Source: a virus
Strand: one strand, 5' to 3'
DNA: 21,761 nt
IMG/VR virus record: IMGVR_UViG_3300025579_000001
Span: 1-21,761 of that record
Shown here: positions 1 through 20,176 of the stretch, piece by piece
Layout of the letters: the number at the start of each line of letters is the position of its first letter
How positions within the stretch are numbered: position 1 is the first letter of the stretch
Made by a program: the position numbers and the translations under genes
The notes under the pieces: generated by a model
Seen by the model: only the letters and a program-made list of their open reading frames with translations
The model's database searches: none
What the model was told of the DNA's origin: nothing

Positions 1-1613
1 GTCCACGTAGCGGTAGCCCAGCCAACGTCGATGTGGCCCGGCATCAACTGGATGCCGACCGCCTGCGGCCCCCCGGTGGCGACCTTCGCCTTGATGTAGA
101 CACGACACCGAGCCTTGGGGAAGGTGTGCCCAACGAGCCACCCCTTATCGCCCCCTCCCATCTCCCAATCGCCATACCAGTTGCCAGCAGTACCCAGCAT
201 CCGGAACGCCATGCCAAAGTCCGTGGTCGCGTCTGCGACAATCTCCCAATCCACGCCCTCCGTCATCCCGTTCGGGAGGATGCCGAGGGGTGCTAGGAGA
301 AGATCCGTGAGATTGACCGGCATCGGATCGACATGCCCGAAAATCGCGGGAAGTGCCTCGCGGGAGTTCAGCACCCGACCATCAAGGAGGTCCTGTGTCG
401 TCTGCCGCGGCAGGCCCCCGTGACCGGTGTACCGGACAGCCTCGACGCTATTGCCTATTCCGCGATCTTCGATCTGACCGGCCGATATCAGGGTCGCGTT
501 GCGAATGGTATTCATGTTGCCGGTCAGGATGACCGACGGATCACGGGCGGGGCAGATAAGCGAGATTTCGTTGAAAAAGGAGTTTGAGCATCCAAGCTCC
601 ACTGGCGCAGTCCCGACGATCGAACCCAGGGCGATCATGGTCCCCGTTATATGCTGGACCGTGCCGCTCCATGAGAACGGGACGAGGCCGTTCTCGATCG
701 TCAGTCTGTTGAGCGTCAGGTTCTCTAGGGACTCACGCCCAAATGGTCCGGTCGCAATGCCAACGAAGAAGAATGGATTGTCGCAAGAGTGGAATGTGGT
801 GTTGGTAAGGACGTTCCCCTCCCAGTTGACCATGCGCCAGCCGTTGCCAACCCCGTTGAAGTAGACGCTGTCCCAGTGAGACTCGTCGCAGGAGATTTCG
901 GTCGTAGCAAGGTTGGTAAGCGGATAGTCGCACCACAATCCATAGGCCAAACGATAAAAGAACAGGTTGCGGAGGCGCCCTAGGGCGAACGTACCAGCTT
1001 GAAGGTAGAAGCCGGCCGAGGCGTTCTGGCCCTGCATCGTCCAAGACGACGCCTCCACGCGGACGTTGCTCATTTCCATGTTGTGCATGAGAAGCGGCTG
1101 GGGGTCCGATCCGTCGGCAAAGTCCGAAGCGAAGCCCGCGTTGCCCACGCCGCCGCGATGCGGGAAGGAAGCATGGGCATCCGCCGAGTCATCGACGCGC
1201 AGCGTGAAGTCGCGCCAGTGCATCCCTACGACATCGAAATAGCCGACCGTCGGGTCAACGTGGAGGATGTCCTGACCCGCCTTGCCCAGCAGCACGGATA
1301 GGCCCATCCCCGCACCGCGGATCGACTGGCCCTTGTAATTGATCGTGCCAACGAGGAGGGTCCCCGGCGGCAGGATAACCTCGCCTGCCGCCGGCGCGGC
1401 GGCATCGAAGGCAGCCTGAACCGCCGTAGTGCTCTCCGTCGCGCCGGTCACGTCCACATACCCGTAGCCCCGCACGTCGAAGGCGCCCGTGGCATACGCC
1501 GCGACCTGGGCGACCGTCAACTTCTTCGACGTGCCCGTCTCGTTGGCGAGGAGTTCATCAGTACCAACAGCGACCGAGGCGGCGGGGAGGGCGGAAAGCT
1601 TGGTGCCAGTCAC
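1..1613 (-). CDS. Tailspike with beta-helix (partial, runs off left edge)
   Basis: This ORF begins at GTG 1613 with ribosome binding site GAAAGGA seven bases upstream, 20 bases after the hub stop, and stays open to the left edge, giving at least 537 residues. Residues 1-40 are the TKLS...GTSKKLTV module, 24 of 40 identical to the 500-aa fibre. Residues about 58-110 match the entry to pectate lyase-like beta-helices (STTAVQAAFDAAAPAAGEVILPPG, then GQSIRGAGMG). The helix continues with Asn-rich turns to roughly residue 400. Near residue 450 onward, a region with WEIVADATTDFGMAF, GNWYGDWEMGGGDKGWLVG and CRVYIKAKV looks like a second beta-sandwich, possibly carbohydrate-binding. It probably digests or binds a host glycan. 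The C terminus lies outside the window. Confidence 0.86.
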   Translation of the reverse strand, partial: MTGTKLSALPAASVAVGTDELLANETGTSKKLTVAQVAAYATGAFDVRGYGYVDVTGATESTTAVQAAFDAAAPAAGEVILPPGTLLVGTINYKGQSIRGAGMGLSVLLGKAGQDILHVDPTVGYFDVVGMHWRDFTLRVDDSADAHASFPHRGGVGNAGFASDFADGSDPQPLLMHNMEMSNVRVEASSWTMQGQNASAGFYLQAGTFALGRLRNLFFYRLAYGLWCDYPLTNLATTEISCDESHWDSVYFNGVGNGWRMVNWEGNVLTNTTFHSCDNPFFFVGIATGPFGRESLENLTLNRLTIENGLVPFSWSGTVQHITGTMIALGSIVGTAPVELGCSNSFFNEISLICPARDPSVILTGNMNTIRNATLISAGQIEDRGIGNSVEAVRYTGHGGLPRQTTQDLLDGRVLNSREALPAIFGHVDPMPVNLTDLLLAPLGILPNGMTEGVDWEIVADATTDFGMAFRMLGTAGNWYGDWEMGGGDKGWLVGHTFPKARCRVYIKAKVATGGPQAVGIQLMPGHIDVGWATATW

Positions 1614-1632
1614 GTTCGTATCCTTTCAGGCG

Positions 1633-3030
1633 TCAATTGGCGGCCAGGAGGCGAACCAACGACTTGGGCAACTCACCGTAGGACACCGTGTAGTGGCGCT
1701 TTCCCGTCCCGTCGAGGAAGTCCATCTCGACCTGGCTGATCTGGAAGGTCCAGCCCGGCGGTGTCACGGTCCCGGTGTCGAACGTCGCCGGGTCGAACGT
1801 CAGCGGGTCGAACGTCCCTCCGCCACTCCCCGGTCCGCCACTCCCCAGATCGAGCCCTCCCAAGCCATCCTCCAGCAGATAGTCGTCGCCCGACTCGAGG
1901 AGGAGGTCCCCCGAGACGCCCTCCGTCAGCAGGACGCCCGAACTATCCTGCAACAGATAGCCGTAGGTCCCCGCCTCGAGGAGAAGGCGGACAGGCGCGC
2001 TTCCGCTCCCCGTCGGCGTCCCGAGGTTTAGCGCGGCGTTCGTGATCGACACGGCCTGACCCGATCGCCAACCGTCCTTGTTCGTGACCGTGAAGGACCC
2101 GCGGATCACAGGCTGCGAGACCTTGGCGAGGTAGGCGGATCCGTACAGCGCGATCTTGGCGGCGTCCGTCGCATCGTCATTCTGGAGCGTCGTCTCGCGG
2201 CGCCCGTAGAGGGTAATGGAGTCGACGTCGAGCACCCAGTCCGCAGCCACCGGAAGATTGGTGATGGGATCCGTTGGCCCGACTACCCACACGGCATTGA
2301 GGATGCCCGACTCGTCACTCTCATGGGTCAGCGTCTCGGCGGCGATCGAAGTCGTCCCGTCAGGGGTGTCGCTGATCGCGTAGGGCGCGACGAACGCGCT
2401 GGTGTAGCCGTAGTTGATCCGGCTCAGGTAGTCGACCCACCACGTGCGATTTGCACCCGCTGCATCGGCGACCTGTGTGAGCGCCTTGGCGAGGGTGGCG
2501 ACGGTGAACGTCAGCGCCGGCATCGATGTGTTCGTGACGTTGACGAGCAGGTCGGGTGCCCGGAGTCCTGTGTAGGCATAACGCGAGACGAGATACTGGA
2601 CGACCGCCCGGTCATCCCATCCCGCGGGGGTAGCGTCTGAGCCGATGTAGGTCGCGTCGGCGTCCGGCTGGAGATCCGAAGCTTCGACGTCGATGGTGAA
2701 CCCGGCGGGTGAGATCGGCGCGAAACTCCGGCTGATGACGCGGCCCGTCCAGATCAAGGTCCCCGTCGCATCGACGACCTCGGTATAGGCCCGTGCGGGG
2801 ATCGTGAAGGCCCTAGTCGGGTCGAAGTGCTGTACCGAAAGCCTGCTCGCCGCACCTGGCCCCGAGTCCGTGACGCGCAGCGTCGTCAGGTCGTCCCGAG
2901 CCGTGTCATCCGTTCCGTCGAAAAGGATGTGCCAGGCTCCCGCCGCGAAGATGCGCGGCGCGAAATAGTCGGGCGTCGCCGTCCGCAGAGCCGACGCCCC
3001 GAGGGCCGAGCGGAGCGTGAAGACGCCCAT
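1633..3030 (-). CDS. Hub-like minor tail protein with repeat insertion
   Basis: This 465-residue protein resembles tail hub proteins: GAWHILFDGTDDTARDDL at the N terminus, a central barrel region (FTIPARAYTEVVDATG, LIWTGRVISRSFAP), and a C-terminal domain split by an insertion. The flanks are WRSGQAVSITNAALN (about 321-335) and WTFQISQVEMDF...RHYTVSYGEL (about 427-453), which in related hubs are close together. The insert, about 338-426, holds four or five L-L-E-S/D-G strands, a Gly/Ser linker (GGPGSGGGT) and the FDPLTFDPATFD tag. It may project from the tail tip. The hub assignment is by fold pattern. The ATG is 8 bases after the glycine-rich gene stop. Confidence 0.78.
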   Translation of the reverse strand: MGVFTLRSALGASALRTATPDYFAPRIFAAGAWHILFDGTDDTARDDLTTLRVTDSGPGAASRLSVQHFDPTRAFTIPARAYTEVVDATGTLIWTGRVISRSFAPISPAGFTIDVEASDLQPDADATYIGSDATPAGWDDRAVVQYLVSRYAYTGLRAPDLLVNVTNTSMPALTFTVATLAKALTQVADAAGANRTWWVDYLSRINYGYTSAFVAPYAISDTPDGTTSIAAETLTHESDESGILNAVWVVGPTDPITNLPVAADWVLDVDSITLYGRRETTLQNDDATDAAKIALYGSAYLAKVSQPVIRGSFTVTNKDGWRSGQAVSITNAALNLGTPTGSGSAPVRLLLEAGTYGYLLQDSSGVLLTEGVSGDLLLESGDDYLLEDGLGGLDLGSGGPGSGGGTFDPLTFDPATFDTGTVTPPGWTFQISQVEMDFLDGTGKRHYTVSYGELPKSLVRLLAAN

Positions 3031-3038
3031 CTACGCCG

Positions 3039-3821
3039 TCATCCGATCGCCACGACGACGATCCCGGAACCGCCTGAGTATCCAGCGAGGGGACTGCTGC
3101 TGAATCCAGCCCCGCCCCCGCCGCCGCCAGTGTTGGCAGTGCCAGCGGTTCCACCCGTGCCAGAACCGGAGGTGACACCGGCCTGCCCGTGGCCGCCCCC
3201 GCCGGTTCCTCCAGCGCCTCCCCCGGATCCACTTAGCGATCCCCCGCCCCCGCCGCCGCCACAATACGATTCCGCCGCGCCCGTGATCGAGTTGGACACG
3301 CCCGCCCCACCCGCCCCGCCGGTGGTGCCAGCGGTCTGTCCGACCTGCAACTGTCCACCGCCGCCATCGTGAGTGGTTGATATCCCGCCATTCTGTCCCT
3401 GCCCAAGTTTGGCTACGCCGCCGGGTCCGCCGGAGCCGCCATCGCCGCCGTTGACATAGGCCCCGTTGTAATACGAACCGAAACCCCCGCCAAGAGCAAC
3501 TATCCTGCCGACGCAAGAGGGCTCGCCCGAGCCGCCCACCGTAACAGTCAACGTACCGGCCGGAAGAAGCGCCACAAGATCGTAGACGTATCCACCCGCC
3601 CCGGCGCCACCTGCTGAACCGCCCCCCGTTTGAGGCCCCCCATTACCGCCGCCACCCACAACCAAGACCTCGGCGTGGCCGGCATTCTTGATGACGAGGG
3701 TGCCGGAGCCGGTCCACGTGTAGATGGTCTTGCCGAGCCGGCTCGCGGTATCGACGGTCGCGCCCGAGGATGACGCCACGGTCGCCGCCGGGATGTTGGG
3801 CGGGAACGCTCGGACGCTCAT
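3039..3821 (-). CDS. Glycine-rich tail adhesin
   Basis: This 260-residue protein is about one third or more glycine. Residues 1-50 (for example RLGKTIYTWTGSGTLVIKNAG) form a beta entry. From about 54 on it reads VLVVGGGGNGG, GAGAGGYVYDLVALLPAGTLTVTVGGSG and then long Gly runs with scattered Ser, Thr and Ala up to GGSGIVVVAIG. This matches the 'glycine-rich domain' tail proteins, whose Gly runs can pack as polyglycine helices, as in the S16 gp38 adhesin tip. A receptor-binding role is inferred. The single Cys residues near 102 and 188 could pair. The low-complexity run is likely prone to expansion and contraction. Confidence 0.85.
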   Translation of the reverse strand: MSVRAFPPNIPAATVASSSGATVDTASRLGKTIYTWTGSGTLVIKNAGHAEVLVVGGGGNGGPQTGGGSAGGAGAGGYVYDLVALLPAGTLTVTVGGSGEPSCVGRIVALGGGFGSYYNGAYVNGGDGGSGGPGGVAKLGQGQNGGISTTHDGGGGQLQVGQTAGTTGGAGGAGVSNSITGAAESYCGGGGGGGSLSGSGGGAGGTGGGGHGQAGVTSGSGTGGTAGTANTGGGGGGAGFSSSPLAGYSGGSGIVVVAIG

Positions 3822-3822
3822 G

Positions 3823-4167
3823 TCAGGAGATCGCCACGCCCGACGCGATGACGTCGAGCGCCGAGGCCGTGCCCGAGTAGACGATCAGCTTCTCGGTCGC
3901 GTTCATGACGATGCCGGTAACCTGGAAGATGGCCCCGCCCGACACGCTGTAGTCGTAAGCGATCGACGCCTTGATGGTCCCGCCCGTTGGCTCGCCGCTG
4001 GACCAAGAGGTGTCGGCGACATAGGCCCGGAAGGCCACGGTGTTCACCGTCCGGTTGGTGACGTTCAGGAGGAGGTTCCACGTCGTCAAGGCGGGCACCG
4101 TCCCGAGCGACGTGTACGTCATGCCGAGCGCGGTCGCGACGCCAAAGCGAGTTTCAATGCGAGCCAT
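3823..4167 (-). CDS. Small beta-sandwich virion protein, 114 aa
   Basis: This 114-residue protein has a pattern of strands: a start MARIETRFGVATALG, then LTTWNLLLNVTNRTVNTVAFRAYV, GTIKASIAYDYSVSGGAIFQV and a closing EKLIVYSGTASALDVIASG. It matches the jelly-roll 'LYTVP...N.....FRAYV' type modules seen at the ends of phage fibres. Here the module is a separate gene. It probably belongs to the tail tip, and a role as a carbohydrate-binding or stabilising piece is inference. It has a good ribosome binding site (GGAGGCGAC) and sits 8 bases after the 154-aa stop. Its stop is one base from the next ATG. Confidence 0.72.
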   Translation of the reverse strand: MARIETRFGVATALGMTYTSLGTVPALTTWNLLLNVTNRTVNTVAFRAYVADTSWSSGEPTGGTIKASIAYDYSVSGGAIFQVTGIVMNATEKLIVYSGTASALDVIASGVAIS

Positions 4168-4175
4168 GTCGCCTC

Positions 4176-4640
4176 CTAGAACCAGACATACGCGAGGTAG
4201 GTGTCGTCACGCAGGATGGCGACGCGCTTGTCAACGATCTGGTTGCTCTGGACCGTGGCGTTGTTCGCCGGGACGTAGACCGCATGGAGAACGATGGACG
4301 CGCCCGGGATCGCGGGGAAGACCGGGTTGGCGGCGGCGATTCCGGCCACCACTGATTTCGTGCCAGAGGTATTGGCGACGATGAGGTCAAACCGCGGATT
4401 GGTCGCGTTGCCCGCACCGATCGCTACTGTGCCCGAGGCGACGATGACATCCCTGCTGCCGATGATGACCACGCCCGCGGCGATCGTGACGTTGAGGTCC
4501 GCGCCCGTGACGGAGGCGGCGCAGCCCGAGGTGACACCCGTCAGCCCGTGGCCGGCCGCAAGGATGGAGAGGTCCCCGGAGTCCGGGCTGGCCTGCGCCG
4601 GGAAGGCGGCGTCCGCGTAGTTCGGGATCTGAAAGGGCAT
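4176..4640 (-). CDS. Tail-tip or baseplate-associated virion protein, 154 aa
   Basis: This 154-residue protein starts MPFQIPNYADAAFPAQASPD. A beta-rich body follows with the conserved-looking segments DLNVTIAAGVVIIGSRDV, NPRFDLIVANTSGTKSVV, NPVFPAIPGASIVLHAVYVP and NNATVQSNQIVDKRVAIL. I recognise this arrangement as a common small protein in tail-fibre regions of siphoviruses, with a repeat-like beta domain thought to link the tail tip to fibres. The exact role is not established. It is encoded just downstream of the tape measure gene, where tail-tip proteins belong. Its ATG is about 10 bases after the tape measure stop. Confidence 0.75.
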   Translation of the reverse strand: MPFQIPNYADAAFPAQASPDSGDLSILAAGHGLTGVTSGCAASVTGADLNVTIAAGVVIIGSRDVIVASGTVAIGAGNATNPRFDLIVANTSGTKSVVAGIAAANPVFPAIPGASIVLHAVYVPANNATVQSNQIVDKRVAILRDDTYLAYVWF

Positions 4641-9572: not shown

Positions 9573-9995
9573 CTACGGGGTGAATGCGCTCGGCTCTTGC
9601 ACGAGCACGGAGAGCGTGAAGTCGATGACCTGGTATTGCGCCTGCCCCACCTCCGCGTACAGGTCGGTGTTCCATTGCACGATCTCGGCCTTGGCGACCG
9701 TGCCACTCAACGTGATCCCCGCCTCGAAGGCCACGACGAAGGCGTCCACGAGGTTGTTGATGACGGTCGACGTCTGGTCGGCATCGGCTGTCCGCTCGAC
9801 GTAGGCGTGGATCGGGAACGTGTAGTCGATCCTCCGCCTCCCGAGGGTCCCGCCGGCGCTCTCGGCGTGGTGCGAACCCACCACGGCCCAGGGCGAGGCG
9901 GGGATCGTGTCCGGTGGGCGCGGCGACGTGCCGCGGATCCCAGCGACGCCCGCGGCCTTGGCTGCTACCGCGACGCAGATGGCGTTGGTGTTCAT
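9573..9995 (-). CDS. Probable tail terminator or tail completion protein
   Basis: This 140-residue protein starts at an ATG overlapping the connector stop. The open frame continues upstream to 10244, but that part lies inside the connector gene and is rejected. The segment from about 55 to 135 (IDYTFPIHAYVERTADADQ, TVINNLVDAFVVAFEAG, QYQVIDFTLSVLVQE) has the alternating strand, helix, strand order typical of tail terminators, which cap the tail tube and join it to the neck. Position between a connector and the tail tube gene fits that role. A second connector (stopper) is the main alternative. Confidence 0.75.
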   Translation of the reverse strand: MNTNAICVAVAAKAAGVAGIRGTSPRPPDTIPASPWAVVGSHHAESAGGTLGRRRIDYTFPIHAYVERTADADQTSTVINNLVDAFVVAFEAGITLSGTVAKAEIVQWNTDLYAEVGQAQYQVIDFTLSVLVQEPSAFTP

Positions 9996-10864
9996 CCGAC
10001 CATCACATCGGTATAGGCCGCCAGCGCCGGGATCTTGTCCGTCGTCAGGACGCGTTGGTAGGTCCGCTCGCCTTCGACGCCGATCGTGAAGCTGGACGTT
10101 CCGCCGGAGCCGCGAGCCCGGTAGCGGGACACCACCAGCATCTCGGCGATGTCGCGGATGACCGGCGGGACGGTGGCCCAGCCGAAGGCACCCGTGAGCT
10201 TGATGGTCCGCCTGCCGCGGTAGAGCCGAAACCCCGACACCCAACCGAGCGAGAGCCGCGTGGCCGGCCAGCCCGGCGACCGGCGGAGGTCCGGCGGGTC
10301 GAGGTAGTAGCCCGTCGTGACTTCGGTGTACGTTCCCGTGCTGTCCGGCTGGTCGATGGCGGCAACCCCGAGGTAGGTCACGGAGCGGATGCCGCGCGGC
10401 AGGAAGAGCGTCATCCCGTCGCCGAAGTAATCGAGGTACACCGTCTTGGTACCGCTCGGCGGATCGGGGAGGAAGCTGCGTCCGGTCACGCTCTGGATTT
10501 CATCGGTCACCGATGCGATGGCGCTCAGGAGCCAGGGATCATCGCCGGTGTCCGGGATCGCGAGCCTCCGCTTGACGTCCTCGAGGTCGCAGAGGCCCGC
10601 CTCGCCAAGCTGGAACGCGGCATCGTAGGCGCTGAAACTTGTTCCCCCGGAGTCGCTGTACCGAACGCGATACCAAGCGGTCGTGGTGCCCGTGGAGTCC
10701 CAGTAGATGTACGTCGTCGTCCCCGCGAGCAGCGCCATCGTGTCGATCTCGGTGTACGGCCCTGCCTGGAGCGTCCCGCGCTCGATACGAAGCACGGCGC
10801 CCGCGCCGTAGGTGACGAGGAGGGCTGCCGGGGTGGCGACCGGGAGATTGAGCATCACGGCCAT
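9992..10864 (-). CDS. Head-tail connector with N-terminal beta domain
   Basis: This is a 290-residue neck protein. Residues about 90-290 have the gp6-type connector pattern: CDLEDVKRRLAI, then DPWLLSAIASVTDEIQSVTGRSF, and later PPVIRDIAEMLVVSRYRARG. Such proteins form the ring under the portal. The first 85 residues are different: IERGTLQAGPYTEID, TTTYIYWDSTG and TAWYRVRYSDSGGTSFS read like a fibronectin III-type beta-sandwich, an extra domain often used for weak carbohydrate binding on virions. The start has a good site (AGAAAGGG). An ATG four codons later is an alternative. The stop overlaps the next ATG (ATGA). The gene follows the GH16 gene after 55 bases. Confidence 0.87.
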   Translation of the reverse strand: MAVMLNLPVATPAALLVTYGAGAVLRIERGTLQAGPYTEIDTMALLAGTTTYIYWDSTGTTTAWYRVRYSDSGGTSFSAYDAAFQLGEAGLCDLEDVKRRLAIPDTGDDPWLLSAIASVTDEIQSVTGRSFLPDPPSGTKTVYLDYFGDGMTLFLPRGIRSVTYLGVAAIDQPDSTGTYTEVTTGYYLDPPDLRRSPGWPATRLSLGWVSGFRLYRGRRTIKLTGAFGWATVPPVIRDIAEMLVVSRYRARGSGGTSSFTIGVEGERTYQRVLTTDKIPALAAYTDVMVG

Positions 10865-10919: not shown

Positions 10920-11642
10920 TCATGCCTGAACCCGCACCCAGTCAACCCGCATGTCGGCGGGCGATGGCGTGGATACCGTCGATAGTTGGGTCCAGTTGCC
11001 GACCACATGGCTGAGGACCATGAACATCGGGACAGATGGCACGTTCGTCGTGGCCCGTGCCATCTCAACTCCGTCTAGGAGACTGGCGACAAACCCCGCG
11101 CGCCACTCCATCTCGAACGTGTGCCAGCCGGTCGTAAGGTCCGTGCCGGCGTCGATGGTATGGGTATCACTCACCGGGGTATCGTGCGGACCGTAATGCA
11201 CCGTGAACGCGTAACGACTTACGCCGGGCCACGGTGACGAGGTGCTCGGGTAGTTCGAGGTATTCGGGTACCCCTCCAGCACGTCGAGTTCAGGTGGCCA
11301 GGAGTCGTCGATCGGCATCAGCCAGAACGCCGGCCAGAGTCCGTCGCCCGTTGGATATCGGATGCGTGCTGAAAAGTTGCCGTACAGTTGACTGAACAGA
11401 CCCTTAGTCGCGATAACCCCCGCCCCCCATGCGCGGCCAGAAGGCGTCGTCATCCGCTCACAACGGATCGTCAGGGCGCTGTTGGCGACACTTGCCTGTC
11501 TCGTGTCGGTAAAGCAGTCGGACTCTAACCCGAGTTGGGTGCTATTCCACTGACCCATCGTCCACTTGGCCGCGTCGAGCGACGAGCCGGTGAAGTTATC
11601 TTCGAAGGTATATGTCCGACCAGACGCCAAACGGTGAGTCAT
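10920..11642 (-). CDS. GH16-type glycoside hydrolase (probable depolymerase)
   Basis: This is a 240-residue single-domain enzyme. It has the GH16 signature E-x-D-x-x-E at E118-L-D120-V-L-E123 (PELDVLEGY), the nucleophile and acid/base pair of the beta-bulge type, preceded by the family-typical GLWPAFWLMP at 101-110. A C-terminal MRVDWVRV matches the last strand. GH16 enzymes cut beta-1,3/1,4-glucans and galactans. The substrate here is unknown. No signal peptide is present, so it should act as part of the virion or after lysis. The ATG at 11642 overlaps the fibre stop (ATGA). The open frame extends upstream to 11825, but those 61 codons lie inside the fibre gene and look like out-of-frame sequence. 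It is probably bound to, or co-made with, the fibre. Confidence 0.88.
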   Translation of the reverse strand: MTHRLASGRTYTFEDNFTGSSLDAAKWTMGQWNSTQLGLESDCFTDTRQASVANSALTIRCERMTTPSGRAWGAGVIATKGLFSQLYGNFSARIRYPTGDGLWPAFWLMPIDDSWPPELDVLEGYPNTSNYPSTSSPWPGVSRYAFTVHYGPHDTPVSDTHTIDAGTDLTTGWHTFEMEWRAGFVASLLDGVEMARATTNVPSVPMFMVLSHVVGNWTQLSTVSTPSPADMRVDWVRVQA

Positions 11643-13141
11643 GCGAGGAACACAACGGCGAAGTTCTGCGTCGTCCCCGCCGCAAGGGTCAGTGGACCGG
11701 CCGGAAGCGGGAAGGACGTGGCGACTTCTCCATACCATAGGCAGTCGGAGTCCTGCGGTCCAGGGCCCGCGCCGAGCGCCGCCCTGACAGTGATGGTTGC
11801 GTTGTCCGCCGCTATCGAAGCCCAATACTTCACGCCCGGAACGAGCGCAAGGCTGCCCGTGAGATTGATTGTCTGAGTCGACCAGGTGCCTGAGGCAGCC
11901 GTCGATCCGGTGGATGCCAAACGGTGGAAGGTGGCATCGTAGATGCCCAGGTCAATGTTCCCCGAGGTGGCCTGGCCGATGTAGGTTCGCGCCTTCGTGA
12001 CGGTTATCGGGTGGTTGACCTGAAAGGCGCACAGCATTGCCTTGTTGGCGGTTGGGATGGTGACGTTGTACGTACCGCAGAGCCGTGGGTCGAACGGACC
12101 GACCCAGAGATCAAGCAACGCCGGCATGGCGTGTTTGTGATCGGTCATCGCGGCGGCCGGACCGGTACCAGTCGCAGCGGAGTCCCCGAATGCTTGGGTC
12201 GAAGGCGTCCCGGCGCCCGTCGCATGGACGTGATCCGACTTGCTCGGCGTCGTGGCCGACCCACCTGCCGAGGTCCCGACGGCAGCGGCCGTCGTCCCGA
12301 GAGCGGGCATCGCGTGCTTGTGGTCGCGCCGAGCAGCGACCGTGGCCGCGCCGACGGCAGCCGAGTCCCCGAACGCCTGCGTCGAGGGAGCCGTGGCGTC
12401 GAAGGCGAGGATCGTGGCATCGGTGGCGAGCGCCGTTGTCGCGGAACCCGTCGCGTTGGTCGTGCCGAGGGTCAGGGCGGGCGTGGCGGTTGCGAACGCG
12501 CCGGGATGGACGTGGTCCTCGTGGCTGGCAGATACGGCGGTCCCTGCCGTCCCCGCACCGGACTCGACGATCGGGGTAGCCGTGCCGAGGGCCGGCATGG
12601 CGTGCTTGTGATCGCGGTGGGCAGCCGTCAGGGCCGTGCCCGCCGCAGCGGAGTCTCCAAATGCCTGCGTCGAAGGTGCCGTTCCGTCATGGATGGGCTT
12701 CCACGTCGGGGTGGTTTCGCCGTTCACGACGCCGAGCACTTCGAGGATGTTGGCGGCTGGGACGGTGAGGGTGAGCTTCCCAGCGGTATCGGCGCCGGTT
12801 CCGACCGCGAGATCACCTGCGGCGTCCCACAGGGGATCGGTAGCCATCGCCCCGCCGCCAGTGGGAGCGGCCCATACGGGTACGTGTGTCGACGCGCTGA
12901 TCGTCAGCACCGTCCCGTCTGCGCCCTTGCTCAACTTGGCGGCGGTATCCGCGCCTGACCCAACTGCGAGATCGCCCGCGGCGTCCCAGAGAACATCGGT
13001 GGCGACCGACTTCGCCCCGACGTATGTCTTGATCTGATCGACCGTCAGTTTCTTGCTCGTGCCCGCCTCGCTGATCGGGAGTTCATCTGCCCCGAGCGCT
13101 GCCGAGGCTGCGGTGAGATCGGAAATCTTCGTGTCGCTCAT
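11639..13141 (-). CDS. Repeat-containing tail fibre with five His-x-His motifs
   Basis: This is a 500-residue fibre protein. Residues 1-40 carry the TKIS...GTSKKLTV module shared with the left-edge tailspike. Two copies of LWDAAGDLAVGxGADTA follow at about 51-66 and 105-120. Three copies of PSTQAFGDSAAxG lie at about 156, 252 and 313, each leading to DHKHAMPAL. His-x-His pairs occur at 178/180, 210/212, 274/276, 304/306 and 335/337. In T4 gp37, HxH sites bind iron along the fibre axis, and metal binding here is inferred from that. Residues about 345-500 look like a beta-sandwich receptor-binding tip. The ATG is 26 bases after the spike stop, with a weak ribosome binding site. The stop overlaps the GH16 start (ATGA). 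Confidence 0.88.
   Translation of the reverse strand: MSDTKISDLTAASAALGADELPISEAGTSKKLTVDQIKTYVGAKSVATDVLWDAAGDLAVGSGADTAAKLSKGADGTVLTISASTHVPVWAAPTGGGAMATDPLWDAAGDLAVGTGADTAGKLTLTVPAANILEVLGVVNGETTPTWKPIHDGTAPSTQAFGDSAAAGTALTAAHRDHKHAMPALGTATPIVESGAGTAGTAVSASHEDHVHPGAFATATPALTLGTTNATGSATTALATDATILAFDATAPSTQAFGDSAAVGAATVAARRDHKHAMPALGTTAAAVGTSAGGSATTPSKSDHVHATGAGTPSTQAFGDSAATGTGPAAAMTDHKHAMPALLDLWVGPFDPRLCGTYNVTIPTANKAMLCAFQVNHPITVTKARTYIGQATSGNIDLGIYDATFHRLASTGSTAASGTWSTQTINLTGSLALVPGVKYWASIAADNATITVRAALGAGPGPQDSDCLWYGEVATSFPLPAGPLTLAAGTTQNFAVVFLA
12121..12680 (-). repeat. Diverged long repeats in the fibre gene
   Basis: Three related units of roughly 75-90 bp lie near 12121-12210, 12301-12390 and 12591-12680. 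Each encodes the PSTQAFGDSAA...DHKHAMPAL block. A different repeat (LWDAAGDLAVG) is duplicated near 12790-12840 and 12950-13000. They are likely sites for unequal recombination. Confidence 0.8.
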
Positions 13142-13167
13142 GCGTGAACCTCAGAGGGCTGCATGTG

Positions 13168-14367
13168 TCAGCCGGCTTGGATGTTCGTTGCGGTGCAACT
13201 GGTCGTCGAGACAAGCGTCCCGCTGTGGGCCTGCGTGTTGCCGGTGACGGTCAGGCCGTCAATGTTCTGGAACTTGAGGAGTGGGCCGGAGCCGCTGGTG
13301 TCGGACGTGTTGTTCGTGAAGGTGATGTTGGACATGCGGGCGCTGGTTGGCTGGGCCCAGCGAACGTCCAGAACGGCACCCGTGATCGTGTTGGAGTCAA
13401 CTAGGACGTTGCTCACGATCTTACCGCTGTGTACGCCATCCACCGAGATGAACGAGTTGCCGAAGGTGCTGAAGGTGTTCCGCCGGAGGACGATGTTGCT
13501 GATGTTCGCGATGCTTAGAGACTCGGGCTCGATGTCAAAACCGCAGTAGCCGCTCGGCCCGAAGGTGTTGTCCTCGATGGTGATGTCATGGCCGCACATG
13601 ATCGAGACGCTGGCCTGCCGTCCGGCGTTGGCAATCGCGTTGTTGTGGACCCAGACGTAGGACGAGTTCTCGTTGAGCGTCACGAAGTCGCCGTAGTAAC
13701 CGCCACCGACGATCCCGCTGATCTCTAGGTACGTGCCACCATCAAAGTTGGCGAAGGCCGTGAACTCGTAAGCGTAGGAGACGCCCGGACTCGGGTTGTG
13801 CGCGGTCGAGATGAAGTTCTGGATAGTGATGTGGTTTGGCTTCGTCTCGGTCCACTGCACGTAAAACGTGGACTTCTGGAAGTCGGCGATGGTCGTGCCG
13901 GTCGGGACGCCGACGTTATTGAGCGTCGTGTTGTTGTGCCCCTCGAAGATCAGGTTGTTCCGCCCGACGACGAGAAGCCGCGAACTGATCTTGTACGTCC
14001 CGCCGAGGGTGAAGTCGATGATCGAGCCGTCTGGCACAGTGGCGATGTAGGCGTTCAGGGCCGTGGTAACGTCGGTCGCGCCGGTATGGTCAATGGTGTC
14101 CGGTACGGTGTGTGTTGCCGTCGTGACCGGGAGGGGAAACATACGGGTCGTCCCTACCGGACCCGGGATGATCCCACCCTCAAGGGCCGCAATCCGCGCA
14201 TCGAGGGCCGCGGCCCGCGCATCGAGGGCCGTGGCCCTCGCTACCAGCGTGATGAAGTCCGCATCCGTCGTAAGGCCGATGTGGCCGGCGTTCCACTTCG
14301 ACTTGCCGACAAGCGACGCGTCCGCTGGGTCCGGCTTGGTGTCTATGTAAGCGTGGGTGATCGGCAT
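13168..14367 (-). CDS. Tailspike-like protein with right-handed beta-helix
   Basis: This 399-residue protein is probably a trimeric spike that binds, and may cut, a surface polysaccharide. The first 40 residues (HAYIDTKPDPADAS and after) may be an anchor. Residues about 44-63 form heptads (ARATALDARAAALDARIAAL) encoded by 21-bp tandem repeats. From about residue 95 on, short repeated strands with Asn-rich turns (for example ITIEDNTF, IVLRRNTFS, VLVDSNTITG, ITFTNNTSD) show the parallel beta-helix of pectate lyase-like spikes. No single catalytic pair can be fixed by eye. It belongs to the adhesin cassette between the capsid and neck genes. A head fibre is also possible. Confidence 0.85.
   Translation of the reverse strand: MPITHAYIDTKPDPADASLVGKSKWNAGHIGLTTDADFITLVARATALDARAAALDARIAALEGGIIPGPVGTTRMFPLPVTTATHTVPDTIDHTGATDVTTALNAYIATVPDGSIIDFTLGGTYKISSRLLVVGRNNLIFEGHNNTTLNNVGVPTGTTIADFQKSTFYVQWTETKPNHITIQNFISTAHNPSPGVSYAYEFTAFANFDGGTYLEISGIVGGGYYGDFVTLNENSSYVWVHNNAIANAGRQASVSIMCGHDITIEDNTFGPSGYCGFDIEPESLSIANISNIVLRRNTFSTFGNSFISVDGVHSGKIVSNVLVDSNTITGAVLDVRWAQPTSARMSNITFTNNTSDTSGSGPLLKFQNIDGLTVTGNTQAHSGTLVSTTSCTATNIQAG
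14179..14241 (-). repeat. Three 21-bp tandem repeats encoding coiled-coil heptads
   Basis: Three adjacent 21-bp units (14179-14199, 14200-14220, 14221-14241) encode successive ALDAR-type heptads in the spike. The last two differ at only a few bases. The exact seven-codon unit suggests growth of the coiled coil by duplication. Confidence 0.85.
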
Positions 14368-14376
14368 GACGAACTC

Positions 14377-14565
14377 CTATGCCGTGTGGAACGTGAGCGG
14401 GTCGAAGGTCGCCGCGTCGAAGGTCCCCGCGACCGTGGGCGGCGGCACGGGCGGCTTCTCGAGGAGGGCAACCCGCGCCGCGAGGGCGTCAATCTTTGCC
14501 TGGAACGCAGCCTCGGCGGCAAGCGCCCGAAGGTACTCGGCCTTGATCGTGGTCGGCGTCGTCAT
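14377..14565 (-). CDS. 62-aa coiled-coil protein with FDPxTF tag
   Basis: This 62-residue ORF has a helical half with heptads (residues about 8-36, LRALAAEAAFQAKIDALAARVALLE), a short Pro-rich hinge (KPPVPPP), and a C-terminal tag GTFDAATFDPLTF. The tag matches the FDPLTFDPATFD stretch in the hub-like protein (residues about 407-417). Coiled coils of this kind trimerise fibres, so this may be a separate oligomerisation or linker piece for the spike encoded next. Its TAG stop overlaps the ribosome binding site (TAGGAG) of the beta-helix spike gene 10 bases further on. It has no known function as a stand-alone protein. Confidence 0.7.
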   Translation of the reverse strand: MTTPTTIKAEYLRALAAEAAFQAKIDALAARVALLEKPPVPPPTVAGTFDAATFDPLTFHTA

Positions 14566-14566
14566 C

Positions 14567-14644
14567 TCAGGCCAGCGTGAGGACCGTGCCGCCGTTCGAG
14601 CCGACGGTGGCTGCGGTCAGGGCGGAGATCTTGCTATCAGGCAT
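14567..14644 (-). CDS. 25-aa ORF matching a fibre N-terminal module
   Basis: This ORF of 25 codons begins MPDSKISALTAATVG. The start closely matches the first residues of the 500-aa fibre (MSDTKISDLTAAS) and of the left-edge tailspike (MTGTKLSALPAAS). It sits one base after the stop of the 46-aa ORF and one base before the ATG of the 62-aa ORF (TGAGATG). It is either a remnant of a fibre gene that lost the rest of its body or a minimal anchor peptide. The conserved module and the tight packing are seen directly. That it makes a stable product is uncertain. Confidence 0.5.
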   Translation of the reverse strand: MPDSKISALTAATVGSNGGTVLTLA

Positions 14645-14645
14645 G

Positions 14646-14786
14646 TCAACTCTCCATCAGGAAAACGCCGGAGCCGTCCTCCAGCAAAATCCCATTCCCG
14701 TTTTCCAGGAGGATTTCGGACTTGGCAGGCGCGCTGGACTCGGCGGGCTTCGGTGATAGGAGTAGGAGCGTCGTCAGGGCGTCCAT
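14646..14786 (-). CDS. 46-aa ORF with L-L-E-D-G repeat
   Basis: This short ORF starts MDALTTLLLLSPKPAESS and ends with two copies of a beta-type unit: EILLENGNG, then ILLEDGSGVFLMES. The same unit occurs four or five times in the hub-like minor tail protein (residues about 347-390). The ATG lies two bases after the stop of the 202-aa gene, and its own stop lies one base before the next ATG. That spacing supports real translation by coupling, although there is no separate strong ribosome binding site. It may be a small strand-swap or trimer-building peptide. The function is not known. Confidence 0.6.
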   Translation of the reverse strand: MDALTTLLLLSPKPAESSAPAKSEILLENGNGILLEDGSGVFLMES

Positions 14787-14788
14787 CG

Positions 14789-15397
14789 CTACATCGCGTA
14801 ACTGGACGGCATCGAGCCGGTGTGGACGAGGGTCACGTCGGAGGCAGCGCCGAGCGTCACCGAGAGGTAGCCCGAGAAGTTGACGAGGAACGGATAGACC
14901 CCTTCGCCGATGCTGGCCTTGAGGGTGGCGATGGTGCCGCTAGAGTCGGCGAGGATGATGGTTCCGGCCGCCGTCGTGTTGACGATGACCGAGACGAGGG
15001 TGCCAGTGCCCTGGGCGACGATTGCAGCGGCGGCACATCCCACGACGATCGTGTCATTCGTGGAGGTTCCGGCGTCGATGACCCAGCCCGAACCTTGGAC
15101 GGATGCGACAGATGCGAAGTACTTCGTGCCGGTGACGAGGACGGTATGCGCGCCCACCGTGAGGGTGTCGGTGATCGTGTTGCCGAGGAGATCGGTGCCG
15201 GTCACGAGGATCGTACCCGGCGTGTCAGCGTTGCCGGCAACCGTGCGGGTACAGGTGACGAGGCGAGCGCCGGCCGTCGGCATGGCGCCAGCGTTGGCGA
15301 GGGTGTACGCCGTCGCCACCTTCATGTTGGCCGAGGTCACGAAACGGTTAGTGACCGCCGCGGTAGCCGCCGAGAAGTTGGTGTGTCCGAAGCCCAT
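14789..15397 (-). CDS. Beta-rich virion protein, possibly head decoration or fibre
   Basis: This 202-residue protein is rich in Thr, Val, Ala and Gly and low in charge. The alternating pattern in segments such as ITDTLTVGAHTVLVTGTKYF and the terminal LSVTLGAASDVTLVHTGS is typical of beta-sandwich virion proteins. No signal peptide or catalytic motif is seen. Its place just after the capsid gene is where decoration proteins or head fibres are often found. That role is inferred from position only. A tail-associated structural protein is an alternative. It follows the 74-aa gene by two bases and its TAG stop is two bases from the ATG of the 46-aa ORF. Confidence 0.8.
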   Translation of the reverse strand: MGFGHTNFSAATAAVTNRFVTSANMKVATAYTLANAGAMPTAGARLVTCTRTVAGNADTPGTILVTGTDLLGNTITDTLTVGAHTVLVTGTKYFASVASVQGSGWVIDAGTSTNDTIVVGCAAAAIVAQGTGTLVSVIVNTTAAGTIILADSSGTIATLKASIGEGVYPFLVNFSGYLSVTLGAASDVTLVHTGSMPSSYAM

Positions 15398-15399
15398 CG

Positions 15400-15624
15400 T
15401 CAGCCTCGCTTCTCGCCGGGGGCGGCGGTGGCCTGCTCGACCTTCGGTTCAGCGACTCGCTTGACGGGGTGCGGGAAGACGAACGGCCCGAACGCCGCCT
15501 TATGCTGCTCGATCATCGGGTCGTCGGGATGGACGACCTCGCCCTTGCGGTACAGGACGCCGGACTCGGTGACGAAGGAGTCCAGCACGACATACAGGGC
15601 GGGCGTCTCGACTGCCTTCGCCAT
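15400..15624 (-). CDS. Small virion-module protein, 74 aa
   Basis: This is a 74-residue protein of unknown function. An N-terminal segment (LYVVLDSFVTESGVLYRKGEVV) looks like a small beta-barrel. It is followed by a charged tail rich in Lys, Glu, Pro and Ala. Small proteins of this shape, with a short beta domain reading roughly 'G..Y..G..v...dp', are common between capsid and neck genes of siphoviruses and are usually left as hypothetical. A strong ribosome binding site (AAGGAGG, 7 bases before the ATG) indicates good expression. Its stop lies two bases before the next ATG, so the two genes are probably translationally coupled. Confidence 0.8.
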   Translation of the reverse strand: MAKAVETPALYVVLDSFVTESGVLYRKGEVVHPDDPMIEQHKAAFGPFVFPHPVKRVAEPKVEQATAAPGEKRG

Positions 15625-15888: not shown

Positions 15889-18231
15889 TTACGCAGTGAC
15901 GGCGAGCTGGCGCCCGGCGTCGATGTTGGACGGCTTGGCGGTGTTCCTCCACCAAGCCAGGATGCCGCGCTGAAGGGTCGGCAGGTTGCCCTGCCCGGCG
16001 CCGAAGATGTGCGGCACGACCTCGACCGTCATGCCGATGCGGTCGATGATGAAGTAGGACTTGGGGTCGATCAGCGCGCCGATGATGTAGTCGTCGACGA
16101 GCCCCGTCACGGCGGACGGAACCTCGTTCACCGGGTAGCCCAGCAGCCGGAGGCCGGTGTTACCCGTGGGGGAGTTCGCCGGGTATCCGACCGCGTTGTA
16201 GTACTGGCCGCCGAAGAGCTGGCCACCAGTGGTCTCGAGTGCCTGGATGGAGCGGATGGTCGCCCGGCCCATGAACCACTGCGCGTTCTGGCGGTAGCGC
16301 AGCGGGAGCGCGGCCTCGACGTTGTAGAGGTCGCCGATGGCGAGCGTGTTCCCCGTGGTCGTGCCGACGTGGGTGTAGGCGCCGGCCGTGGCGTGCGCCG
16401 CGAGGACGCCGATTGGGTTGAAGCCTGCGCCGAGCGCATCGCCGACGCCGAGGGTGAAGACAGACTCCTCCTCGGTGTCCTTGGCCTCGGAGATGAGCGA
16501 GGCGATGTCGGAGGTCCAGTTAGGACGGTCCTCAAGGGCCTCGACGGAGATCGTGACGAACCCAGAGACCCTGCCCACGATGGCGGTGATCTGGCCGATG
16601 GCCGGGCCACCCTCGGTGACCGCTGCGGCCTCCGCGGCTCGCGTGACGGTGACGGCCCCGGCGGTCACGCCGTGGAAGGTGTCCGTCCCGGAGATCTGGA
16701 TGGTGCGACAGTTGGTTCGGTAGGGGTTCTCGCTCGTCCAAGCGCCGACGTGGACGAGGGTCGGGTCGAAGTAGAACGGCACGCCGAATCCGCCGGTGGC
16801 GTCCGTCTGGACGGTCATGGCGGCGGCGCGCGCCTCCTCCACGGTCATCGGGCGACCCTGGAGGAACTTGGCGAAGGCCCGGAGGTATGTCGGCGAGCCG
16901 GTCGAGAGGACGCGGCGGGCGAGCTCCTTGTCACGCGAGTCCGAGTCGATCAAGCGAAAGATCGAGGCGCGGGTCTTGTCCACGTCAGCGTCGGGATGGG
17001 GGTACTTGGCGATCTCCACGGCGCGCATCGCGTTGTCGCGCTGCGCCTGCGCCCACTGCTCGGTCGAGCGGTAGCGGTAGGGCTCCTGGAGGACCGGATC
17101 GTAGATGTCCGTCTCGGTCTTGCGGGAGAACGACGCAACCGGCTCGTAGGCGGCCGTCCGGTTGTCCTGGTTCTCGGCGATCTGCTCGGCGTAGTTGATG
17201 CGCTTGTCCCACGCCTCGATGGCGGCGTTGAGCGCGTTGCGCTCCGAGGTCTTCTCGTCCCACGCGCCCTGGTCTGTATTCGACAGGACGCCGGGAAGTT
17301 CGGCCATGCGGGCGATCTCCGGGTCGAGCTCGCGCCGGCGGGCGCTCATCTCGTCGCGGGTCTTGTACTGCGTGATGTCCACTGGAGTGGTCTCCTTCGG
17401 TGTCGGGGCTGCGATGGTCTCCGGCTCATCGCGGCGCTCCGGCTCGAGGTGCGGCGGTGCCGCGGCGTCGAGGGAGGGTGCTACCGGGTCGGGCGTTGGG
17501 ACCCGCATCTCGTCGGTGATGGACCGAAGGGACACGGAGGCCGACGGGTACGCCGGCCAGGTGACGGGGCCAAGCTCGGGGAGCTTGGCCTCGGTGATGG
17601 TGCGTTCGGGGAGACGGTCTGGGTTATGCAGGCCCCCCCCGGGCAAGTACTTCGGGGATTGCACCCAGTCCTCGCGTACAACGCTGAACCGATGCGACGC
17701 GCCGTAGACGCCCTTGCGAAGACCATCCACCACAAGCGGCGGCACGCCTTCAAGGATCGTGCCTCGGGCAAACGGGCTGATCTCGTCCTCGCCCACTTCG
17801 TCGGTCGTGGCGATCGGCTTATCGCCGATCTGCGGGTCCTTGCCATGTTGGAAGAGGATCTTGGGGAGGTGATCGGCCATCGTCTTCTTGTAGGCGGTCC
17901 GGCTGAACCGCTCCATGAAGTGGCCCTCTACCTTCGAGTTGATCTCGGCCCACTGGTCTGCCGGCGCCAGCCGAACGGTGAGGGTACGGCCGTCCTCGGA
18001 CGTGACGCCACCCGCCATCGCTCGGTAGAGGTCGTCTCTCGGCGCGATAGAACGCCCGCCCGTGTGGCTGTGCCCGGACGGAGCGGTGTCCGCGCTGTGC
18101 ATCGTGTCGTGCGTGGCCGTCATATCGGCCGCCGTCGCGTCAGGGGGCGTGTCAACTCCGTGGCCGTCCGGCGGTTCGGCGGCGAGATGCTTCCGCATCC
18201 CGGCAGCATCGGCCGGCATGTCCATCATCAT
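15889..18231 (-). CDS. Prohead protease fused to major capsid protein
   Basis: One 780-residue ORF encodes two HK97 head proteins. Residues about 60-240 resemble the S78 prohead protease: H129 (FQHG) and S179 (YGASHRF) are the likely catalytic pair at a spacing of 50, followed by the LPELGPVTWPAYPSA strand at 217-231. Residues about 245-285 form a Pro-rich linker. Residues 287-440 are charged and helical, like the HK97 delta (scaffold) domain. Residues about 445-780 are the capsid fold, with TGGFGVPFYFDP at 479-490 and SYFIIDRIGMTVEV at 725-738. The first 60 residues are rich in Met and His. In HK97 these are two genes, so the fusion must be self-processed or reduced by internal initiation. 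The ATG overlaps the portal stop. A G8 run lies in the protease part (17633-17640). Confidence 0.93.
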   Translation of the reverse strand: MMMDMPADAAGMRKHLAAEPPDGHGVDTPPDATAADMTATHDTMHSADTAPSGHSHTGGRSIAPRDDLYRAMAGGVTSEDGRTLTVRLAPADQWAEINSKVEGHFMERFSRTAYKKTMADHLPKILFQHGKDPQIGDKPIATTDEVGEDEISPFARGTILEGVPPLVVDGLRKGVYGASHRFSVVREDWVQSPKYLPGGGLHNPDRLPERTITEAKLPELGPVTWPAYPSASVSLRSITDEMRVPTPDPVAPSLDAAAPPHLEPERRDEPETIAAPTPKETTPVDITQYKTRDEMSARRRELDPEIARMAELPGVLSNTDQGAWDEKTSERNALNAAIEAWDKRINYAEQIAENQDNRTAAYEPVASFSRKTETDIYDPVLQEPYRYRSTEQWAQAQRDNAMRAVEIAKYPHPDADVDKTRASIFRLIDSDSRDKELARRVLSTGSPTYLRAFAKFLQGRPMTVEEARAAAMTVQTDATGGFGVPFYFDPTLVHVGAWTSENPYRTNCRTIQISGTDTFHGVTAGAVTVTRAAEAAAVTEGGPAIGQITAIVGRVSGFVTISVEALEDRPNWTSDIASLISEAKDTEEESVFTLGVGDALGAGFNPIGVLAAHATAGAYTHVGTTTGNTLAIGDLYNVEAALPLRYRQNAQWFMGRATIRSIQALETTGGQLFGGQYYNAVGYPANSPTGNTGLRLLGYPVNEVPSAVTGLVDDYIIGALIDPKSYFIIDRIGMTVEVVPHIFGAGQGNLPTLQRGILAWWRNTAKPSNIDAGRQLAVTA

Positions 18232-19697
18232 GGCTTCCCTCCTGCGGGCATCGGGGACGGCTTGGTAGGCGCGGCGGGCAACCCCGCCGCAGTCGGCATG
18301 ACCGCAGGCTTCTCTGGACCGGTCCCGTCGCCGACCGGAACCTCGCCGGGGGCCTCGCCCTGCGGCATCTTGGTAGAGCCGGGCGCCTGGAGCTGAACGC
18401 TGAACAGGCCGGTGTGGTGGCCCTTGAGCCGCCCGAGGTCGTTGGCGGTGATGGCGTCGATGACGGCATCCGCCTCGAAGCCCGTATCGATGAGCGACCG
18501 GACCGCCTGCGAGTTCTGGGCCTGCACCGCAGCGGTCGACACCACGTCATCCTTGAGCGCCGGGATGTGGCGGTCGTCGTACCAGAGCTCCGCTGCGCCG
18601 GGTGCCGGGCAGACAACCTCGAGCGAGGCGCAGGCGTTGCGCCACAGCGGGCGGATCGTCAGGTCTGCGAACATCCGCATCGAGGCGCTGAAGTTGCCCG
18701 CGTTGAGGCTCGAGCCCTGGAGCCCCTCGGAGATGAGCGCCACCGGAGCGGGGACACCGGCCGCCGCCGACATGCGCGTCTCGCCGGCGCCCTGCGTCAC
18801 CTTGAAATCAATCTCGGTGAAGTTCGAGCCGACCTTCTCGACTTTCGCGCCGCCCGTCAGAAAGAGCGTCTTGTAGGCGTTGCGCGCCCCCTCGTGGCCC
18901 TTGCGGATCGCGTCTACGGCCTTATCGAAGACTTCCCCCCGCACCGACGGGTCGAACGTGACGACCATGTTCGGGGTCGCTCCGTTCCGCATGAACGCCG
19001 ACTTGTGCTCGGTCATGGCGATGTCGGAGCTGATCTCGCGGATGATCGGGGTCAGCCAGGACATCCCGCGCGACGGCATGAGCGGATCGGGTGTCGGGGC
19101 GAAGTGAGCGACCTGTTCACGTAGGAAATAGATCGGCGCGATGCCACTGCCTGGGCCGCCCGGCATGTAGACGAAGGCCACGACGCGGGAACTCACGACC
19201 CACGGGTTCTCGCCGCTCGACACGATCGTCACCCAGTCGGGCCGAAGGTGCATGAGGCGGGCGGGCGACCCGACGCGAGCCGTGAAGGAGTTACCGGCGA
19301 GGTCGACGTCCTGGATCATGTGGGCGAGCAGGTCGCTCGTGGTCGCATTCGGCCACGGGTTCTCGAGGATGGAGAGGTCGGCATTGCCGAAGAGGTCGCC
19401 CGGCACGCCACCGCGAAGTTGGCGGAACTGGAACCGAGCCTCGGTGAACAGTGACGCCCGGCGAGCCATCAGGGCGTGGACAATCGCGTTCGACCGGTAG
19501 GCCCACGCCACGAACCCGCCGTAGCCGGGGTCCGGCTTCTCCTCGTTCCCGATCAGCGTCTGCTGGAGGGTGAGCGGGTAGTCGTTCCCGCCGAAGTTGA
19601 GCGGGTAGGCGTTCCCGCCGAAGTTGAGCATCGGCCAGAAGTCCCGCGTTTCCTGCGGCGTGCGGACAGCAGTGCGCAGCCGGTCGATCATCCCCAT
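18228..19697 (-). CDS. Portal protein (HK97 type)
   Basis: This protein forms the dodecameric ring at the capsid vertex through which DNA enters and leaves. It has 489 residues, slightly longer than HK97 portals. Family-like features are the early segment around residues 60-75 with SNAIVHALMA, the LLAHMIQDVDLAGNSF region around 122-140, and a central stretch on local structure and selection of nonredundant epitopes (SEGLQGSSLNAGN, roughly 340-355). The C-terminal 60 residues are Pro/Gly-rich and probably disordered. Residues 25-42 are two copies of a nine-residue unit, NFGGN(A/D)YPL, from a 27-bp tandem duplication. The start follows the HNH stop with a one-base overlap. The stop overlaps the capsid gene start (ATGA). 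Context between terL and a protease-capsid gene supports the call. Confidence 0.92.
   Translation of the reverse strand: MGMIDRLRTAVRTPQETRDFWPMLNFGGNAYPLNFGGNDYPLTLQQTLIGNEEKPDPGYGGFVAWAYRSNAIVHALMARRASLFTEARFQFRQLRGGVPGDLFGNADLSILENPWPNATTSDLLAHMIQDVDLAGNSFTARVGSPARLMHLRPDWVTIVSSGENPWVVSSRVVAFVYMPGGPGSGIAPIYFLREQVAHFAPTPDPLMPSRGMSWLTPIIREISSDIAMTEHKSAFMRNGATPNMVVTFDPSVRGEVFDKAVDAIRKGHEGARNAYKTLFLTGGAKVEKVGSNFTEIDFKVTQGAGETRMSAAAGVPAPVALISEGLQGSSLNAGNFSASMRMFADLTIRPLWRNACASLEVVCPAPGAAELWYDDRHIPALKDDVVSTAAVQAQNSQAVRSLIDTGFEADAVIDAITANDLGRLKGHHTGLFSVQLQAPGSTKMPQGEAPGEVPVGDGTGPEKPAVMPTAAGLPAAPTKPSPMPAGGKP
19572..19625 (-). repeat. 27-bp tandem duplication inside the portal gene
   Basis: Two adjacent 27-bp copies (19572-19598 and 19599-19625) differ at one base, a T/G change that turns Ala into Asp. 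They encode NFGGNAYPL and NFGGNDYPL at portal residues 25-42. The near-identity implies a recent in-frame duplication. Confidence 0.92.
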
Positions 19698-20176
19698 CAG
19701 GCACCCCCGGCGCGTTCTCGCGTCAGATAGGCGATCGCATCCAAGAGACGAGCGGGACTATCTCCAAGATTGCCGATCCCGAGGTTGCACGGGTTGCAGA
19801 GCATCCCGCGGATGACGCCAGTCCGATGGTCATGGTCGATTACGAGGCGCAGGTCATCCCGGCCGCAGATTGCACACGCCCCATTCTGTTGCGCGATTAG
19901 TGCGGCGAAGTCCTCGGGCGCCATTCCATAAGCAAACCGGAGCCAATCCCGGTGCGGCTTGTCCGGGTTGCGGGCGTAATATTCCCGGCTCGCCTTTCTT
20001 GCGTCGGCCAGTCGGGCCGGGTCGGTTCGTCTCGCTCGATAGATGACGCCGGCATAGCACCTCTTGCATAATCCCTTAGCACAATGCGGGCGTTCGGGAT
20101 GGCACGTAGGAGTCGCGGGACCGTTCGGCCATCGGGCCGCACTCGCGCTCACTAGAGACTCGGGTCTCATCCCCAT
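19697..20176 (-). CDS. HNH nuclease, recombination endonuclease VII type
   Basis: This is a probable zinc-binding nuclease of 159 residues. The C-terminal half has the endonuclease VII pattern: C101-x2-C104, then DHDH at 114-117, then C127-x2-C130 followed by N131. In the T4 enzyme the equivalent cysteines bind zinc and the Asp-His and Asn positions form the active site. A second Cys cluster near the N terminus (C25, C32, C37, C40) could hold another zinc. The family resolves branched DNA, and HNH proteins beside terminase genes can also assist packaging-related cleavage. Which role applies here is inference. The gene overlaps terL by 10 bp and the portal by one base (TGATG). A second ATG at 20170 would give an ATGA overlap with terL and is an equally good start. 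Confidence 0.85.
   Translation of the reverse strand: MGMRPESLVSASAARWPNGPATPTCHPERPHCAKGLCKRCYAGVIYRARRTDPARLADARKASREYYARNPDKPHRDWLRFAYGMAPEDFAALIAQQNGACAICGRDDLRLVIDHDHRTGVIRGMLCNPCNLGIGNLGDSPARLLDAIAYLTRERAGGA

Follow-up and report, generated by a model that had tools for sequence, protein, structure and literature searches.

Between the head genes and the gene for the head-tail adaptor, the phage described here and its relatives have a recurrent accessory slot for host-surface genes, a conclusion well supported by the comparison of gene order. The receptor-binding genes of siphoviruses are usually sought after the tape measure gene, and this phage has a set of adhesin genes there as well as the set in the slot. 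The window, by which we mean the whole stretch of DNA that was analysed, is a 21,761-base IMG/VR fragment and not a finished genome. In the sections below, we describe the gene order of the window and the contents of its slot, the variability of the same site in related and unrelated phages, and the readings that may be given of where the products attach.

Gene order and the contents of the slot

All structural genes of the window lie on the minus strand and are packed tightly, in agreement with the initial annotation, which had described the genes of this region as closely spaced and running in the direction of the head block. In minus-strand order they are TerL, endonuclease VII/HNH, portal, a protease-capsid fusion, g45, g74, g202, g46, g25, g62, g399, g500, GH16 and the head-tail adaptor, and downstream of the adaptor come tail genes, the tape measure and then the second adhesin set at 1-4640, which was confirmed as a set of its own. 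The features are these:

19697-20176: endonuclease VII/HNH gene, between terminase and portal (phrog_2914, 7.5e-29)
15889..18231, minus strand: head maturation protease - major capsid protein fusion, 780 aa (PF05065, 2.2e-19; PF04586, 7.6e-9; phrog_10); left border of the head block
15400..15624, minus strand: g74, conserved small head/connector gene (phrog_9538, 1.8e-4), with homologues in 61 loci
14789..15397, minus strand: g202, conserved head-block protein, directly after g74 in 43 loci
14646..14786, minus strand: g46, small ORF, like g465 residues 334-380
14567..14644, minus strand: g25, 25-aa ORF with a start like the KIS docking tag
14377..14565, minus strand: g62, like g465 residues 393-420
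13168..14367, minus strand: g399, with WNxxH tag and sub-cut-off PF13229 match
11639..13141, minus strand: g500, with KIS tag, HxH repeats and DUF4082-like C-terminus
10920..11642, minus strand: predicted GH16 beta-glucanase domain, 240 aa (PF00722)
9992..10864, minus strand: head-tail adaptor (connector), right border of the slot (phrog_442, 3.3e-14; PF05135, 1.1e-6)
9573..9995, minus strand: putative tail terminator, by position; homologues after the connector in L002 and L047
4650..7385, minus strand: tape measure protein (phrog_1533, 1e-10)
1633..3030, minus strand: g465, tail protein, hub-like by position, its C-terminal segments echoed by g46 and g62
3..1613, minus strand: tail-end spike with KIS docking tag, cut by the window end, its N-terminus common to g500

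The set of adhesins and a depolymerase that had been placed between capsid and neck genes is real, in that g399, g500 and the GH16 gene stand between the head genes and the head-tail adaptor. The set follows the major capsid protein, g74 and g202, a capsid-adjacent position of the kind looked for in head fibre genes, and it lies before the adaptor, not downstream of the tape measure, where tail spike and fibre genes are placed. The names first given to the individual parts fared unevenly: the GH16 domain scores above its cut-off and the HxH fibre is present, whereas the beta-helix call falls just under cut-off and the tail terminator, named from its position and its homologues in L002 and L047, had no family match in a family profile search. 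In the same type of search, g465 likewise had no family match.

The enzyme is a GH16 family member by profile score and motif: PF00722 matches it at 50.8 bits against a Pfam cut-off of 22 (E 1.8e-13), the catalytic EXDXXE motif is intact as ELDVLE and aligned in the same region to the PDB laminarinase u155541, and the closest solved relatives are laminarinases or endo-1,3-beta-glucanases (PDB sequences, 4e-15). Its start is set at the ATG at 11642, which gives 240 aa and an ATGA overlap with g500 and replaces the start of a 301-aa ORF. The predicted activity is that of a beta-glucanase, and the enzyme would cut a beta-glucan-type matrix, its putative substrate, near the host. Neither a signal peptide nor a docking tag was seen in the GH16 protein, which may be absent from the virion altogether.

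The 399-aa protein g399 joins an N-terminal WNxxH tag to a predicted coiled coil and the features of a right-handed beta-helix spike; its match to the beta-helix family PF13229 (3e-5) reaches 24.1 bits against a Pfam cut-off of 25.9, which makes it a probable, sub-threshold beta-helix protein, and its AF2 fold from the single sequence (pLDDT 43) is too poor for use. The 500-aa g500 consists of a KIS N-terminal docking tag, HxH repeats and a C-terminal DUF4082-like domain, whose match is also below cut-off (2.9e-5; 24.5 bits against 28.4). Residues 1-40 of g500 are 60% identical over 40 aa to the N-terminus of the tail-end spike of the same phage (E 3e-9) and the remainder is unrelated, the pattern that two proteins docking at one site should show; among the cassette proteins, g500 is the only one to have a docking segment in common with a tail protein of its own phage.

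Two further small ORFs, g46 and g25, lie upstream of g62. In BLASTP searches among the window proteins, g46 resembles residues 334-380 of g465, including an LLEDGSG motif (8e-4), and g62, which has a heptad-like stretch and a TFDxxTFDPLTF tail, resembles residues 393-420 (0.002), such that the pair matches consecutive segments of one tail protein. The ORF between them, g25, begins like the KIS docking tag (MPDSKISALTAA) and has a weak match to residues 1-13 of g500 (E 0.036, among window proteins).

The slot in related and unrelated phages

By searches with the connector and capsid proteins, about 70 related loci were collected, in which iterated profile searches found g202 (43 loci) and g74 (61 loci) right after the capsid gene. 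Because it keeps this place in 43 loci, directly after g74, g202 is a core head gene outside the variable cassette, and not the cassette member for which it had been taken. Its AF2 model (pLDDT 90.9) has two domains and is all-beta; the fold was considered as a clue to anchoring and set aside, the model being good yet having no informative match (none in the PDB at E<=1e-3). The good-score relatives of g202 are only unnamed proteins from uncultured phages, and it is possibly a decoration or anchor protein of a large uncultured phage group. In phage records, no match was found to g202, g399 or the LamG protein of locus L045, and the A1 capsid alignment found no relatives among the genome contigs searched.

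In the 31 loci with both borders visible, among which a few near-identical contigs may remain, the interval from the head genes to the connector ranges from 0 to 7,723 bases, holding at least 1 kb of accessory genes in 12 loci and measuring at most 0.5 kb in 16. When both distances are taken from the same 13 loci, the head-to-connector interval has a coefficient of variation (CV) of 1.00, against 0.14 for the 3.4-5.5 kb from connector to tape measure. Additional contigs end within a filled slot, and the cassette is absent in three cultured relatives, REQ1, Madraxi and Nymphadora (~32% capsid identity). The comparison of gene order with related contigs, which had been proposed as a check, accordingly shows one site that recurs filled or empty as a variable interval beside the head genes, and the neck block varies by presence and absence among relatives (0 to 7.7 kb) in the manner of the nps genes of 936 phages.

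An assembly join or chimeric contig is very hard to credit as the source of the window's arrangement. Nothing was found in its favour, the window merely being an IMG/VR fragment rather than a finished genome; this explanation and that of a chance arrangement were rejected because the site recurs, either occupied or vacant, in independent contigs. Many such contigs agree, L002 (connector 56% identical) has the same site occupied by other genes, and within the window the spacing is tight and the codon bias similar across the junctions. The idea that compact tail tips offset filled slots was also considered, and the nine tail modules gave no clear pattern.

The contents of the slot differ yet fall into adhesin, enzyme or virion-modifying types; 11 protein families are common to two or more slots, and 35 groups are limited to one locus. 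L002 has a beta-helix protein, L033 a 574-aa protein that contains Big_5 and is pectate lyase-like by eye, and L044 (5986-6492) a 168-aa matrixin-like zinc metalloprotease (PF00413, 3.4e-5) with a signal-peptide-like N-terminus; LamG-like proteins, long repeat proteins that resemble annotated minor tail proteins, and phrog_644 proteins are found in further slots. Proteins of the phrog_644 type occupy six slots and also close the tail modules of MooMoo and Ariel, the LamG protein of the L028 slot is related to a tail-module protein of L049, where the slot is empty, and in L054 a similar gene pair stands just after the connector. In the same interval of a distant relative (L019, 11488-16886), glycosyltransferase-, methyltransferase-, deacetylase- and acyltransferase-like ORFs were noted by sequence inspection, with a possible role in glycan modification of the virion or cell surface.

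In unrelated siphoviruses, too, related genes occupy this block. In L238 (8833-13437), an unrelated siphovirus with a different capsid type and few capsid relatives in IMG/VR, the stretch from the adaptor gene Ad1 to the head closure gene Hc1 encodes a GH12 protein, a fibre with the KIS tag, a repeat protein with LLEDGSG and a phrog_26662 protein. In the Streptomyces phages Hiyaa and Galactica, the interval from capsid to adaptor includes a phrog_26662 gene and the gene for a 'minor tail protein' of 1.1 kaa; in cultured Hiyaa (L289, 9071-12871) the protein so annotated is a 1110-aa LamG-like plus repeat protein, and residues 1-287 of Hiyaa gp13 are homologous to the L028 slot protein (28%, 3e-10). 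Hiyaa, Galactica, Spocter and Keanu are like the window in that gp12 and the 1110-aa protein stand between the major capsid protein and the head-to-tail adaptor, with a phrog_644-type neighbour, but they belong to a different lineage, and their annotated interval lacks both GH16 and a KIS-tag fibre. Another locus, L083 (MW202496, 2065-6286), whose annotated virion genes look podovirus-like, encodes a glycosyltransferase and a 'b-glycanase' and has an ORF that bears the WNxxH tag, all placed after the capsid gene and before the neck genes.

Docking tags and the site of attachment

The WNxxH and KIS tags look like reusable docking modules. That of g399 is present in the cassettes of L002, L047 and L053 as well (four slots in all) and in 0 of the 9 tail modules of the group. 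An IMG/VR-wide pattern scan placed WNxxH near the ORF start in 76 of 80 cases, as befits a generic N-terminal tag, and in the few contigs with a mapped capsid or tape measure gene its place varies: behind the tape measure in G032, upstream of the capsid in G053, elsewhere in others. Its generic spread across phages and its position in G032 speak against a head-specific tag, and it does not decide between a head and a tail location. KIS-type N-termini like that of g500 (56% over 41 aa with MEP402) are found in the Methylophilales phages MEP401/402 and the Roseobacter phages CRP-4/5, on proteins annotated as tail fibre, fibre or structural protein; unlike in the window, the gene in MEP402 (Zobellviridae) lies within a fibre array and not between capsid and adaptor. 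Across IMG/VR, both WNxxH (VxPSDWNxxH) and KIS (KISxLTAA...EaGTSKK) occur widely on fibre-like proteins of phages (L087-L165, L206-L285).

The reading that we prefer, to which we give close to an even chance, is that of a modular accessory slot supplying virion appendages, with docking to the tail slightly ahead of docking to the head or neck. The slot between capsid, g74 and g202 on one side and the adaptor on the other would take interchangeable late genes whose products bind or degrade the host surface; in the window, a spike (g399), a fibre (g500) and the GH16 enzyme would be made together with the structural proteins, and short N-terminal tags would mount g399 and g500 on the virion, into which slot products are likely to be incorporated. 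The clue with most weight is g500: since the docking segment is common to both, it would most likely dock at the site of the phage's own tail spike, and tail docking of this protein is slightly favoured. The echoes of g465 in g46 and g62, the LamG relative in the L049 tail module and the phrog_644 proteins of MooMoo and Ariel likewise favour tail-type modules. Against tail docking, the shared tag could bind a target other than the tail tip, WNxxH is found in slots and in none of the group's nine tail modules, KIS and LLEDGSG modules stand also in the neck block of the unrelated L238, and in 936 phages the products of optional genes close to mtp form structures at the neck.

Attachment to the head or neck, as the initial annotation had suggested for this second adhesin set, would mean that the slot products are anchored as head fibres or neck whiskers, with the capsid, g202 or the adaptor as their base, and give the phage another means of adhesion in addition to its tail tip; this is possible, though rather unlikely. 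Its premises hold, in that the set is separate from the adhesins after the tape measure, which the phage already has, and occupies a recurrent variable interval by the head genes; the position between core head genes and adaptor recurs in the group, in L238 (Ad1-Hc1) and in cultured Hiyaavirus (MCP-adaptor), and 936 nps whiskers, HFTV1 turrets and phage 7-7-1 capsid fibres offer precedents. Of head or neck attachment itself no sign was found: g500 carries the docking tag of a tail spike, the LamG and phrog_644 slot families are found in tail modules elsewhere, and some slots have non-structural genes, namely the glycosyltransferase-like ORFs and the matrixin-like protein with its signal-peptide-like N-terminus. 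A broader proposal, that several siphovirus lineages share a neck-block slot whose exchangeable fibres and glycosidases sit on the head or neck, perhaps via g202 or the adaptor, and so provide variable adhesion devices at head or neck in addition to the tail tip, seems to us unlikely.

The same non-structural genes bear on a further explanation, that the slot is a late-expressed moron site, the products of which are free at lysis or on cell surface and virions and are not fixed virion parts. The untagged GH16, the matrixin-like protein of L044 and the L019 ORFs, which were named from sequence only, agree with it; the N-terminal tags and fibre-like repeats of g399 and g500 are, however, typical of virion appendages, and the slot repeat proteins are like annotated minor tail proteins, and we consider a moron site quite improbable.

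Known systems and significance

Optional adhesin genes in the neck block are already known from the lactococcal 936 phages, and the slot of the window is a variant of such an arrangement. The optional nps genes of these phages, upstream of mtp, make neck whiskers, as seen by immunogold (PMC4759559). Like the genes of the window slot, they are an optional part of the structural module close to the neck genes, and closely related phages differ in whether they have one and of which type (PMC4759559); unlike those genes, they lie directly upstream of mtp and not before the adaptor, their product is proven at the neck and they have no glycosidase cassette. The two are likened by gene arrangement. 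The capsid turrets of HFTV1 (gp30/gp31), with carbohydrate-binding and deacetylase-like domains, are located on the capsid by cryo-EM (PMC12494034), and phage 7-7-1 has capsid fibres (PMC12796354); both indicate that the head of a tailed virus can bear adhesins. The turrets resemble the window slot in pairing an adhesin with a carbohydrate-active domain, which is proposed to work on the host surface while part of the virion (PMC12494034), but HFTV1 is an archaeal virus with a capsid location shown by cryo-EM, and the window is likened to it at the level of domain content. A 913-aa minor tail protein of a Curtobacterium phage also places GH16 in a phage structural block, but there the domain belongs to a large protein whose gene lies upstream of that for the terminase.

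The Hiyaa-group Streptomyces phages are cultured and carry a homologous slot, and therefore the question of whether this position predicts head, neck or tail attachment is directly testable. In many genomes, genes for host range and depolymerases may escape notice or receive the wrong name, given that a second slot of such high variability precedes the adaptor.
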